A stretch of DNA of 64,000 nt, taken from NCBI GenBank assembly GCA_001801685.1, contig MGYJ01000026.1, positions 62,001 to 126,000 on the forward strand, in the 5' to 3' direction. The notes below the pieces were generated by a model. That model did not search any database. It had not been told where the DNA came from and saw only the letters and a list, made by a program, of their open reading frames with translations. Numbering within the stretch: position 1 is the stretch's first letter; each line of letters begins with the position of its first letter. Below are positions 49,646 through 56,126 of this stretch, in pieces. This stretch comes from Gammaproteobacteria bacterium RIFCSPHIGHO2_12_FULL_63_22. GTDB lineage: Bacteria > Pseudomonadota > Gammaproteobacteria > Xanthomonadales > Xanthomonadaceae. Made by a program: the position numbers and the translations under genes.

Positions 49646-50419
49646 CTAGCCGCGGGCGACGCCCGGCGTTATCAGTACAGTCAGGCCCGCAGCCAGGTCG
49701 AACCCGGGAACATGTGCGGCGTGGGTCGCCGCCGGGCCGAGCGACTCACCCTTCGCCAACGCCAACAGGAAATCCGCCACCCCGGGCGACAAGGACATTA
49801 CGCCAACTTCATGCAGCGGTCGCAGCACGAGCACGTCCTCCGCCTGCCCCGCGTCGACCCTCGCCAGCGCCGCGTCGCGCTCGAATTCTTCGTCGTGCTG
49901 GTGGGCTGCCCAAAGCGAGTGCACGGCGAACTGCGAGCGCAGGACCTCGCAGGCCGGGTGCAAGGCGATGCGCAGCTTCGACAGGCCCTCGGCGTCGGCC
50001 ATCAAGGCTTGCAGCGCTCCTGGCAACAGCACCGGCGCGTCCTGGGCGTGATGGGCGCGAACGCGCATTCGTTCCAGGCGCCCGACGTCGGCCAGGTATG
50101 GCAGGCCATGCGCGGGCGGAAACTGTGCGATGAAGTTTGCGAAGCCGTCGCCGTACTCGACCAGCACCGGCGATGCCGGTGGCTCCAACAGTACGTATTC
50201 GCGGGCCATGGCACGGAAGAATTCTTCCCCGACCAATTCCCGGACCACCGGAAATCCGCTGGCGAGGGCCTGGGTCAGCGACGCCATCACGTTGTTGCGA
50301 TACACATCAAAACGTTTCGCGGGGTCCGAGCCGTTCCATGCGCGCAATCCTGCCGGCGTCGCAAGCCTGGCGTCGAGCAGGGCCCGGGCAAATTCGGACT
50401 GCGACGGAACTCCGGTCAT
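49646..50419 (-). CDS. bufC: BufC-type partner protein (DUF2063, HvfC/BufC family)
   Basis: A 257-residue cytoplasmic protein of the DUF2063 family, with the N-terminal YRNNVMASLTQALASGFPVVRELVGEEFF (split: FDVYRNNVMASL near 37 and FPVVRELVGEEFFRAM near 55) typical for HvfC/BufC proteins, and a C-terminal half with winged-helix-like character. Such partners bind the peptide precursor leader and present it to the MNIO enzyme. ATG 50419 overlaps the bufB stop as ATGA. The long upstream frame is a shadow of bufB. Together with bufA and bufB it makes a full bufferin cassette. Confidence 0.87.
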   Translation of the reverse strand: MTGVPSQSEFARALLDARLATPAGLRAWNGSDPAKRFDVYRNNVMASLTQALASGFPVVRELVGEEFFRAMAREYVLLEPPASPVLVEYGDGFANFIAQFPPAHGLPYLADVGRLERMRVRAHHAQDAPVLLPGALQALMADAEGLSKLRIALHPACEVLRSQFAVHSLWAAHQHDEEFERDAALARVDAGQAEDVLVLRPLHEVGVMSLSPGVADFLLALAKGESLGPAATHAAHVPGFDLAAGLTVLITPGVARG

Positions 50420-51249
50420 GCGGCGTGCTGCCGTTGTGCATCCAGCAGGCGCTGCGCCTGCGATGCCTGGTCGCGCAACACGGCATACGCGGGCACGTCG
50501 TTGTCCCATTCGATCAAGGTCGGCAAGGGCCCGGTTGATGCCAGCGCGCGCGCATACAAGCTCCAGACGGCGTCGGCAACCGGACTGCCATGGCTGTCGA
50601 TCAGCAATGGCGAGCCGCCTGCATCGCTGTCCACGGCATGGCCGGAAAGGTGGAACTGCCTCGCGGCATGCAGTGGCAGCGAGGCAAGGTAGGCGGCCGG
50701 ATCGCGGCCGTGATTGATGCTGCTGACGTACGCATTGTTGACGTCGAGCAACAATCCACAGCCGGTGCGCTGCACCACCAGGCCCATGAACTCGCCTTCC
50801 GCGATAGAGCTGGCGCAGAACTCGACGTAGGTCGCGGGATTTTCCAGCAGGATCTGGCGACCGAAGCGCGACTGCAGCTGTTCGACATGTTGGCAAACGC
50901 GATCCAGCGAGGCCTCGTCATAGACCAGCGGCAACAGGTCGTTGAAGTTGTTCAATCCGTGGCTGGACCAGGCCAGGTGTTCGGAGAAGGAATCCGGCTG
51001 GTAGCGTTCGATCAGCGCGGCGATGCGCTCGACATGGCGGGCATCGAGCGGGGCTTCACCACCGATCGAAAGTCCCACGCCATGCAGCGACAAGGGAAAA
51101 TGATCCCGCAGCGCACGCAGGCTCGCATGCGGCTCGCCGCCGGCGCCAAGGAAATTTTCCGCATGCACTTCGATGAAAGCTGGCGGATGCGGATCCGCCA
51201 GCAGTGACGCGTAGTGCTGTGGTTTGGGCGCGATGCCCGCCCCCATCAC
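50416..51249 (-). CDS. bufB: MNIO-family RiPP oxidase BufB (DUF692)
   Basis: A 277-residue TIM-barrel multinuclear non-haem iron oxidase. Family ligand stretches appear in order: FIEVHAENFLG, PLSLHGVGLSIGG, FSEHLAWSS, ILLENPATYVE, LLLDVNNAYV, RQFHLSGHAVD, IDSHGSPV and LIEWDND. These His, Glu and Asp residues bind two or three irons. In characterised bufferin systems the enzyme converts cysteines of BufA to thiooxazole-type groups. Start ATG 51249 is 4 bp after bufA; a second Met lies at position 2. Overlap with bufC as ATGA indicates one operon. Confidence 0.93.
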   Translation of the reverse strand: MMGAGIAPKPQHYASLLADPHPPAFIEVHAENFLGAGGEPHASLRALRDHFPLSLHGVGLSIGGEAPLDARHVERIAALIERYQPDSFSEHLAWSSHGLNNFNDLLPLVYDEASLDRVCQHVEQLQSRFGRQILLENPATYVEFCASSIAEGEFMGLVVQRTGCGLLLDVNNAYVSSINHGRDPAAYLASLPLHAARQFHLSGHAVDSDAGGSPLLIDSHGSPVADAVWSLYARALASTGPLPTLIEWDNDVPAYAVLRDQASQAQRLLDAQRQHAA

Positions 51250-51253
51250 CGGC

Positions 51254-51580
51254 TCAGGCCTTCTTGGCTGCAGCCTTCGCCACCTTGAATTCCTTCAACT
51301 GGCCGAAACCCGTGGGCGACGTCGGAGACTTGGTGGTGACGCAGGTGCCGGACGGAACGAGCCGCCAGGCGCTGGGCTGGTAGTCCACCTTGGACGTGCC
51401 CGCGCAGCTGGTACCGGGGCCGGCGGCGCAGTCGTTCTTGCCTGCGAGGGAAACGCCGTAGCACTTCTCCTTGCCCTTGGCGCCCTGTTCCATATGGGCG
51501 CTGGCGTTGGCGGACATGGCGGAACCGAGCGCGGCCACCAGGGCCATGGCGGGAATCATCGAGTGTTTGCGGGAGGTCAT
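51254..51580 (-). CDS. bufA: Bufferin precursor BufA (DUF2282), exported four-Cys RiPP
   Basis: A 108-residue precursor peptide. Residues 1-28 form a cleavable signal peptide (hydrophobic [10 protein letters not shown], cleavage probably ANASA-HM). The mature part carries the four conserved DUF2282 cysteines: Cys40 in KEKCYGV, Cys51 in KNDCAAG, Cys59 in TSCAGTS and Cys80 in PSGTCV. In described bufferins the two central cysteines are oxidised by BufB/BufC and the product binds copper in the periplasm. The tail is Lys/Ala-rich. ATG 51580 has AAGGA nine bases upstream; an ECF-like promoter lies 35-60 bp upstream. Confidence 0.94.
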
Positions 51581-54565: not shown

Positions 54566-55009
54566 TCACGCGCCGGCCAGGTCGTCCAGGATCGGGCAAT
54601 CCGGGCGCTGGTTACCCTGGCAATGCCGGGCCAGCGATTCCAGGGTCCGCTTCATGGATTGCATCTCTTCAATCCTGCGGTCGAGGTCGAGCACATGGGC
54701 CTGGGCCATCTTCTTGACCTGGGCGCTGGCCCGCGACTGGTCATTCCAGAGCGCCAGCAAGCCCTCGATCTGTTTCATCGAAAACCCAAGGCCGCGCGAT
54801 CGCTTGATGAAGCGGAGGCGATGCAGGTCGGCATCGCCATAGAGTCGGTAGCCGGCGAATGTCCGGCTGGCCGGAGGAATCAATCCGGTCGCTTCGTAGT
54901 GGCGGATCATCTTGGCGCTGATTCCGCTGACCTGCGCCGCCTCGCCGATATTGTGGAAGCCCTGCACTTTTGCGTCGGCCAGTTCCGGCCGTTCGATCCT
55001 GCGCGCCAT
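54566..55009 (-). CDS. cueR: CueR-type copper-sensing MerR regulator
   Basis: A 147-residue MerR-family activator. The winged-helix DNA-binding part runs FHNIGEAAQVSGISAKMIRHYEATGLIPP (split: FHNIGEAAQVSG and MIRHYEATGLIPP) with RTFAGYRLYGDAD following. The dimerisation helix is SMKQIEGLLALWNDQSRASAQVKKMA, cited in halves, with Ser at the position that in CueR excludes divalent metals. The metal loop is CQGNQRPDCPI, the CX7C of Cu(I)/Ag(I) sensors near residue 132-140. ATG 55009 has AGGAG seven bases upstream. The first in-frame extension upstream lies in the promoter and is not used. Confidence 0.93.
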   Translation of the reverse strand: MARRIERPELADAKVQGFHNIGEAAQVSGISAKMIRHYEATGLIPPASRTFAGYRLYGDADLHRLRFIKRSRGLGFSMKQIEGLLALWNDQSRASAQVKKMAQAHVLDLDRRIEEMQSMKRTLESLARHCQGNQRPDCPILDDLAGA

Positions 55010-55044: not shown

Positions 55045-55075
55045 AGCTTAAACCTTCCCATGGGGGCAAGCTCAA
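55045..55075 (-). promoter_or_regulatory. Promoter of cueR with CueR box in a 19-bp spacer
   Basis: Minus-strand -35 TTGAGC (55075-55070) and -10 TAAGCT (55050-55045) are separated by exactly 19 bp. The long spacer and the GGAAGGTT end are, as I recall, those of E. coli copA, controlled by CueR. The box lies between the two elements, so copper-CueR would activate its own gene here. Leader length to ATG is about 30 bases. Confidence 0.8.
55052..55070. repeat. CueR operator copy 1 of a 19-bp direct repeat
   Basis: The sequence ACCTTCCCATGGGGGCAAG occurs here and again at 55084-55102, 32 bp apart (three helical turns). It is an imperfect dyad (CCTT half-sites) of CueR-box type. This copy serves the cueR promoter. 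Confidence 0.85.
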
Positions 55076-55080
55076 CCCGC

Positions 55081-55111
55081 TTGACCTTCCCATGGGGGCA
55101 AGGCCCAGCCT
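55081..55111 (+). promoter_or_regulatory. Promoter of the metallothionein-like gene with CueR box
   Basis: Plus-strand -35 TTGACC (55081-55086), 19-bp spacer, -10 CAGCCT (55106-55111). The -10 is weak, as usual for MerR-activated promoters. The left half TTGACCTTCCC equals, as recalled, the E. coli copA promoter. It lies back to back with the cueR promoter, five bases apart at the -35 elements. About 35 bases remain to the ATG at 55153. Confidence 0.75.
55084..55102. repeat. CueR operator copy 2 of a 19-bp direct repeat
   Basis: Exact second copy of ACCTTCCCATGGGGGCAAG (first at 55052-55070). It occupies the spacer of the rightward promoter. The two copies differ from each other only outside the 19 bp, which argues for selection on the operator. 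Confidence 0.85.
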
Positions 55112-55152
55112 TCGTCCTGCGGCATCCCGCCGCGCCAACCTAAGGAACGAAA

Positions 55153-55284
55153 ATGGGCCTCGAGACCACCAAGATCACCGCCGCCACCGCCGACATGTCG
55201 TGTGGTTATTGCTGTCGCTGCATCGAATGCCAGTGCACTGAATGCCAGTGCTGCGCCTGCGACGGTTGCCGCTGCCCGACCTGA
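55153..55284 (+). CDS. Cysteine-rich metallothionein-like protein (43 residues)
   Basis: A 43-residue protein with 12 cysteines (28 percent), all between residues 17 and 41. They fall at 17, 20, 21, 23, 26, 28, 31, 33, 34, 36, 39 and 41, an ordered array of CxxC, CC and CxC units. The first 16 residues are cysteine-free (ETTKITAATADMS). There is no signal peptide, so a cytoplasmic metal sink is expected. ATG 55153 follows AAGGAA with five bases between. It is divergent from cueR with a CueR box in its promoter, so Cu(I) binding is the best reading. No histidines. Not a member of a family I can name with certainty. Confidence 0.82.
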   Translation: MGLETTKITAATADMSCGYCCRCIECQCTECQCCACDGCRCPT

Positions 55285-55300
55285 TCCGCCGACGCGGATC
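55283..55300. terminator. Hairpin joining the stop codons of two convergent genes
   Basis: A perfect stem GATCCGC / GCGGATC with a four-base loop. Its left arm lies within the metallothionein stop codon and its right arm within the stop codon of the convergent cNMP-binding gene. No T-run follows on either side, so termination is possible but not typical. Confidence 0.55.
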
Positions 55301-56126
55301 AATCCTTCCCGCGCAGCGCCTCTCGCACTTTTGCCTCGGCGCGAAACTCCGCCAGCTCACGCAGCAGGGTTTCGATATTCACTTCGTTCTTCAGGTTGAC
55401 CTTGAAGTCGGTATCGGCGCGGGCGCGGTCCTTCAGGGATTGGCGGTTCTGGCTCATTACGATCAAGGGGCCTTGCAGGCCCACCAGGATCGCCAGCGCC
55501 AGGTTGAAGAACTGGAATGGATAGGGATCGATCGGCAGCTTGATCAGCCAACCGGAATTGACAGCGCACCAGGCAATCGTCAGTGCGATCAGGAAAAGGA
55601 TGAAAGCCCAGCTGCCATTCAACGCCGCGACATTGTCTGCCAGGCGGTCGCTCCAGCTGAGGTTCTTCTCGAATTCCTCGTCCACGTTCTTGGCCGCACG
55701 CGCGGACAACATCGTGTTCGTTTCCCTCAGCCGTTCGCTCAGCGTACGCAGGATCGCCAGCGCCACCTTCGGCCGGTTTTCCAGATAGCCTTCCAGGGTG
55801 CGGCGCTGCAATTCGAGCAGCACCGTTTCGGTCGTGGCCAGGGCGCTGGCGCTGCGCGGTTTTTCGTCGAACAGCGCCAGCTCACCGAAGTATTCGCCGC
55901 GGGCGATGTCCTTCAGCGAGATCCGACGCGAGGCTTCGCCCGGCAGGTGGATGTTGATGTCCCCGCTCTCGACGATGTACATCGAGTCGCCGTTGTCACC
56001 TTGCGAGAACACCATGCTTCCGGCGGCAAATTGCCGCCGTTGCAAGCTGGCGCCCAGCTCGGCGAGGTCGTGGTCGGTCAGGCCTTCGAACAGCTCGATC
56101 GAACGTAGCAGCGGGGTCGGGTCCAC
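55299..56126 (-). CDS. Cyclic-nucleotide-binding domain plus DUF1003 membrane protein
   Basis: A 275-residue protein. Residues 10-125 are a CRP-like cNMP domain, seen in FEGLTDHDLAELGASLQRR, GDNGDSMYIVESGDINIHL and GEYFGELALFDEKPRSASALA (the phosphate-binding cassette). Residues 165-260 form DUF1003 with two hydrophobic helices, NGSWAFILFLIALTIAWCAVN and FQFFNLALAILVGLQGPLIVM, given in parts. The start is GTG 56126, as no ATG gives a full cNMP domain. It ends beside the metallothionein gene, convergent. It may sense a nucleotide at the inner membrane, role unknown. Confidence 0.85.
   Translation of the reverse strand: MDPTPLLRSIELFEGLTDHDLAELGASLQRRQFAAGSMVFSQGDNGDSMYIVESGDINIHLPGEASRRISLKDIARGEYFGELALFDEKPRSASALATTETVLLELQRRTLEGYLENRPKVALAILRTLSERLRETNTMLSARAAKNVDEEFEKNLSWSDRLADNVAALNGSWAFILFLIALTIAWCAVNSGWLIKLPIDPYPFQFFNLALAILVGLQGPLIVMSQNRQSLKDRARADTDFKVNLKNEVNIETLLRELAEFRAEAKVREALRGKD

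Follow-up and report, generated by a model that had tools for sequence, protein, structure and literature searches.

A twelve-cysteine small protein encoded divergently from cueR, probably a CueR-activated copper metallothionein, in a Xanthomonadaceae genome

The window analyzed here, a stretch of 64,000 nucleotides (64 kb), carries beside a divergent cueR a gene for a 43-residue protein which, judging from its sequence and surroundings, very probably represents a new family of small, cytosolic, CueR-activated Cu(I) metallothioneins. The gene and its CueR were established directly, as were the coding selection on the cysteines, the CueR boxes with their spacing, a hairpin motif in the leader and the arrangement common to the relatives (Table 1). 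An earlier note on this DNA had proposed a CueR-controlled Cu(I) metallothionein. That proposal is now supported by the identity of CueR, the boxes within 19-bp spacers, the 12 Cys of six homologues, whose core Cys codons change at the third position only, and a CueR-type promoter before all six (with a weak box in G128); Cu(I) binding and induction themselves are inferred. The cueR-side box, the 5' hairpin, the lack of copA beside these cueR genes and the bufferin genes described below had not been part of that note. If the reading is right, bacterial metallothioneins would reach the best-studied copper sensor, through a simple swap of output, a sponge for a pump. Among metallothioneins whose regulation is described in the accessible parts of the literature, control (SmtB, BxmR, RicR) is not by a MerR-family activator. 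One promoter and one 43-residue peptide would also make a testable model, and the family could seed the finding of further missed small genes.

Table 1. Features of the metallothionein-cueR locus, in window positions.
Feature	Position	Strand	Basis
Metallothionein-like gene, 43 aa, 12 Cys	55153..55284	+	ORF; core Cys codons fixed at positions 1 and 2 (6 homologues)
Ribosome site AAGGA	55142..55146	+	read from sequence
Stem-loop at predicted transcript 5' end	55118..55134	+	motif in all 6 members
Metallothionein promoter: TTGACC, 19-bp spacer with CueR box, CAGCCT	55081..55111	+	sequence; box 14/14
CueR box 1, CCTTCCC-N5-GGCAAGG	55085..55103	+	sole 14/14 site in 64-kb window
cueR promoter: TTGAGC, 19-bp spacer with second CueR box (55053-55071), TAAGCT	55045..55075	-	box 13/14
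cueR, divergent gene for a Cu(I)-responsive activator of the MerR family	54566..55009	-	TIGR02044 above cut-off; alignment to solved CueR

The reading frame runs from ATG to TGA and encodes MGLETTKITAATADMSCGYCCRCIECQCTECQCCACDGCRCPT, which, together with its ribosome site, bears out the intact small gene claimed before. All 12 Cys fall in residues 17-41, so that the density of 12 in 25 given in the earlier note holds. It lies far above the maximum of 5-6 Cys per stop-free 25-residue stretch reached when the 64 kb was base-shuffled 20 times, and the runner-up in the six frames of the window itself has 8. A signal peptide had been denied, in agreement with the polar residues 1-16 of the window peptide, where the best 10-residue Kyte-Doolittle mean is 0.23 and no hydrophobic stretch was found; a hydrophobic N-terminus is absent from all six members of the family. 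The next gene 3' of the metallothionein gene is on the opposite strand. An 8-bp stem at 55282-55301 overlaps the stop codon (z-score of the stretch -1.5); it has no T-run and no terminator is claimed there.

Relatives were sought with the single sequence in 198 genomes and with a profile in 395 genomes of the same taxonomic family, and further in 299 order, 369 class, 398 phylum and 27 genus genomes, which are overlapping draws. Five were found, in genomes G101, G002, G196, G151 and G128, all of the same family as the window genome, and the finding of the cysteine pattern in them answers the homologue check that had been set beforehand. The protein is thus rare, in 6 of the 395 family genomes with the window genome included, rarity being judged solely on the drawn genomes. 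The profile match in G151 is weak (E 0.0036) and was accepted because the gene is divergent from cueR, while the member in G128 was missed by the first profile and recovered by the second. Beyond the family no match was accepted in the order, class and phylum draws. A candidate of the class search, G704 (E 3.7e-4), has a stop inside the frame and no cueR. Among 42 low-scoring loci from the single-sequence, family-profile, class and genus searches that were checked for cueR, only L038, which is the G151 member, had one, and L018 was set aside as a poly-Cys run. A pattern scan of the whole collection gave at least 119 stretches, mostly readings of poly-Cys repeats, and none of the 9 frames left after filtering had a cueR match or was taken as a member. 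Neither plasmids (window and G101 peptides) nor phages (window peptide) gave a match in a search that masks low complexity and may hide Cys runs.

The members have 39-50 residues, exactly 12 Cys in all six cases and the core CCxCxxCxCxxCxCCxC, and the five relatives are 36-43% identical to the window protein. His is absent from five of the six; the single one, in G151, adjoins the Cys cluster. Since members were found partly through the pattern, the cysteines themselves are expected to agree, and the independent point is that their codons change at the third position only. Pairwise differences at positions 1/2/3 are 0/0/20 of 135 for the nine core Cys codons, as against 62/79/62 of 120 for the eight other core codons. 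The codon-position check proposed earlier hence came out in favor of a coding frame, and this comparison points to selection at the coding level that acts on cysteine and hardly on other residues, as a metallothionein would show. Small size, CxC, CC and CxxC steps and cysteines that stay while the rest drifts, the hallmarks of metallothioneins, are all found here. The same third-position-only change in six genomes, behind CueR-type promoters, speaks against a spurious ORF. The frame is short and no family model matched it; even so, we regard this explanation as next to negligible.

The regulator, which had been called CueR-type and divergent, can be named with more precision. Against the CueR model TIGR02044, which has a cut-off of 147.4, its product reaches 161.2 bits, and it is under every cut-off of ZntR, MerR, CadR-PbrR and the other listed models, as well as under that of PRK10227, a narrower CueR model of the E. 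coli type (102.5 bits, cut-off 244). The alignment to a solved CueR spans residues 20-146 of 147. The equivalents of Ser77, Cys112 and Cys120, which we take to be the copper-site residues in numbering and role, are kept in all 70 CueRs examined, the window's included. CueR-type sensors respond also to Ag(I) and Au(I).

CueR boxes were scored out of 14 by simple self-complementary match to CCTTSCC-N5-GGSAAGG. Only two sites of the 64-kb window reach 12 or more, at 55053 (13/14) and 55085 (14/14), and they lie 32 bases apart between cueR and the metallothionein gene, one for each direction. Lower scores are common (19 sites at 11/14, 115 at 10/14), and across 20 shuffles of the 64 kb a score of 12 turned up 27 times, a score of 13 twice and a score of 14 never. 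The box inside a 19-bp spacer, a feature of the CueR regulon, is present: in the metallothionein promoters of all six members TTGACC is separated by 19 bp from a -10 element, the spacing in G151 being read by hand because two TTGACC overlap. Box scores are 14 in the window genome (G000), 13 in G002 and G101, 12 in G196 and G151 and 10 in G128. On average a shuffled 64 kb contains about 1.4 boxes of 12/14, and since scores of 10/14 and 12/14 arise by chance, it is spacing and position that carry weight in G128, G196 and G151. The gene of G128 is 4.4 kb from cueR, yet it is preceded by TTGACC-19-GAGCCT. In the whole genome, a pattern modelled on the metallothionein promoters and allowing three mismatches matched both window promoters and one palindromic place on contig C68 (on both strands), before a CopA-type ATPase; when the pattern was reversed as a control, one match was obtained. 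At the C68 place (L174, approximately 1484-1520) the palindromic CueR box precedes copA with the -10 only about 7 bases before the ATG, which suggests a leaderless copA transcript.

Directly 3' of the -10, all six members have the stem-loop motif CGGCAnnCnGCCG. In an alignment of their leaders and that of the CopZ-like gene of G005 discussed below, with rows hand-cut to 17 columns (6 distinct rows), 30 of 30 cells pair and two of the five pairs changed on both sides; 2 of 500 shuffles attain the covariation score. Of 36-mers drawn at random from the window, 16% have a 5-bp stem in that place, so the case for the hairpin rests on motif identity and paired changes. The motif is absent from ten other CueR-type promoters (four cueR-side, six others). 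The leader stem-loop probably protects the mRNA.

The setting of cueR was compared at the best 70 of 97 CueR matches, the 27 weakest being omitted. The metallothionein is divergent from cueR at 5 of these 70 loci, and no other 25-residue stretch has more than 8 Cys in the interval reaching from 900 bases ahead of the start of cueR to 1300 past it. At 61 loci copA is directly upstream of cueR (60 by BLAST; L235 by reading of the C-terminal part of the ATPase). None of the 61 has the metallothionein beside cueR, as against five of the nine others, although through shared descent the cases are not independent. The other four of the nine comprise G128, with the metallothionein 4.4 kb off; G070, with copA past the 3' end of cueR; G102, with copA about 2.7 kb away on the other strand; and G005. 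At the G005 locus (L215) the position divergent from cueR is filled not by the metallothionein but by a CopZ-like protein, recognized by eye from its MSCGHC motif and carrying a Cys-rich tail (CCGTC); its gene follows an 11/14 box and has a hairpin of matching type in its leader.

In a CueR tree of 68 rows, from which the long rows L244 and L245 were dropped, the five metallothionein-linked CueRs, of three genera, form one side of a branch with support of 90/90 (not starred), found in 93% of bootstrap trees. A constraint uniting all eleven CueRs from the window's genus was rejected (p 0.0013). The CueR of G128 is placed elsewhere, and a group of all six carriers was not rejected (p 0.25); in an earlier tree of 70 rows the six carriers require 3 changes. 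The simplest reading of these trees would be that the cueR-metallothionein cassette moved or was differentially kept across genera.

Copper ATPases were searched with CopA in 20 genomes (E 1e-40) and with a Cu-ATPase model in 10 (E 1e-20). G101 and G128 have one copper-type ATPase each over the cut-off, a further match of 76 bits in G101 falling short of it, and at these thresholds no CopA-type exporter was found in either genome. The ATPase of G101 is near a gene that, read from the sequence, we take to be CcoG-like, and that of G128 directly before one that, read in the same way, we take to be CcoS-like; given these neighbors, both ATPases look like the type of cbb3 oxidase assembly. CopA-type ATPases exist elsewhere in G002, G151, G196 and the window genome, hence the peptide could fully replace export in two of the six at most. 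The window genome has several copper-type P1B ATPases, and the effect of the gene in its host could therefore be small. In a wider proposal, cueR and the metallothionein gene travel together as a cassette by which CueR is switched from driving export to driving sequestration. The cassette would have taken the place of the cueR-linked CopA pump in some lineages, and the peptide would be the main cytosolic copper defense in G101 and G128, which would have no CopA-type exporter left. We put this forward tentatively, as a possibility that is less likely than not.

Two rival explanations partly overlap with a CueR-activated Cu(I) metallothionein. In one, the CueR-induced metallothionein serves mainly against silver or gold, or binds zinc or cadmium once made. 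This is conceivable, in that CueR-type sensors answer Ag(I) and Au(I), metallothioneins are promiscuous and the G151 member has a His next to its cluster. A Pseudomonas metallothionein has also been studied for zinc homeostasis and cadmium, as the accessible part of PMC7387436 describes. We consider it rather unlikely, as the linked sensor is of the Cu(I) type, with the Ser77 equivalent kept in the six carriers, and five of the six members are without His, unlike the zinc-finger fold described for SmtA homologues (PMC7558416, accessible part). In the other rival the peptide is a chaperone instead of a sink, handing Cu(I) to an exporter or cbb3-assembly ATPase in the role of CopZ. Twelve Cys are more than a single-copper chaperone needs, freely varying non-Cys core residues would be odd in a docking partner, and the lack of a Pfam match means that no HMA domain, as in CopZ-type chaperones, is recognized. 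These points leave a chaperone improbable, even with the CopZ-like protein of G005 occupying the same divergent place and with CopA and copper chaperones described as being under CueR (PMC12193353, accessible part).

A third rival, a Cys-rich leader peptide that senses copper through its own translation and thereby regulates a gene further downstream, would fit the conserved 5' hairpin motif and the situation in G128 (L226, 2103-2557). There the stop codon of the metallothionein gene shares bases with a GTG that may start a DUF3703 gene (PF12487), perhaps with translational coupling. The opposite strand of the next gene in the window, an intrinsic terminator about 30 bases past the stop in G196 (GGAGCCAGA-loop-TCTGGCTCC-T8) and codon-level constraint limited to Cys make it very unlikely. 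DUF3703 itself was dropped as a steady partner: it is present in 4 of 16 genomes, with a single locus (G042) having a 12/14 box, about 460 bases upstream. The window genome has DUF3703 on contig C61, with a CopA-type ATPase roughly 3 kb away.

For the preferred reading, a CueR-activated Cu(I) metallothionein, a mechanism can be outlined. Resting CueR would occupy the over-long (19-bp) promoter. Cu(I), or Ag(I)/Au(I), filling the Cys112/Cys120 site would make CueR distort the DNA, the mode of activation of E. coli CueR, and both the metallothionein gene and cueR would then be transcribed. The short mRNA, from its predicted start, would begin with the stem-loop that probably protects it. In the cytosol, its likely location, the 12-Cys peptide would wrap several Cu(I) in a thiolate cluster and lower free copper. 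CueR points to the inducer, not to the metal that the peptide binds.

Among known systems, the CueR regulon (copA, copZ) has the same regulator and the same promoter with a 19-bp spacer; the output here would be a Cys-rich peptide, not an exporter or folded chaperone. That the Cys pattern had not been recognized earlier is in line with the searches, as none of the six members matched a Pfam or NCBIfam family up to E 10, where HMMER filters may drop weak matches. The member profile had no match among PDB sequences up to E 10. A weak match to a copper-binding protein (E 0.77) appeared in a PDB search; the HMA likeness of the N-terminus concerned, MSCGYC, does not extend to the five other members and was discarded. 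Vertebrate metallothioneins have runs of the type CxCxxCxCxxC, a likeness left as convergence, and convergence is likewise assumed for yeast CUP1 and other eukaryotic Cu-thioneins, copper-switched and with a dense cysteine array, which are alike by description only. The SmtA family contains His, and RicR is a CsoR homologue acting as a repressor.

The accessible parts of the literature allow further comparisons. MymT, the copper metallothionein of mycobacteria, with a predicted capacity of up to six Cu(I) (PMC7558416; PMC10141476) and part of the RicR regulon (PMC10141476), is likewise a tiny Cys-rich protein tied to copper control, under CsoR-type RicR and not, as here, a MerR-family CueR with a 19-bp-spaced promoter; the two are set apart here by description and regulator. 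The window gene most likely acts like MymT in purpose, under another class of regulator. SmtA, BmtA and PmtA are also small thiolate-rich metal binders. SmtA is described with a zinc-finger fold (PMC7558416) and is controlled by SmtB (BxmR also controls a metallothionein; PMC12193353); our six members match no Pfam or NCBIfam model. Zrd of Pseudomonas aeruginosa, a zinc-ribbon protein likened to metallothioneins by its authors (PMC12301328), is a Cys-rich metal protein under a MerR-family activator, CadR, and is unlike the present family in its zinc-ribbon domains, Zn/Cd response and predicted mononuclear sites (PMC12301328). By 2020, just two bacterial metallothioneins had been investigated for their biological function according to PMC7387436, and yeast CUP1 is the only metallothionein mentioned in PMC10187127. 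No metallothionein under CueR was described in the accessible parts of the open-access literature, most subscription papers and all bioRxiv preprints lying outside that scope.

Finally, bufferin genes were observed at 50416-51571 (-) of the window, 3.6 kb from the metallothionein gene, with no CueR box of 12/14 or more near them. They encode a protein like a DUF2282 precursor, with no NCBIfam match, and a BufB maturase (NF050167, 348 bits; cut-off 310). Bufferins are described, in the accessible part of PMC12452194, as chelating excess copper.
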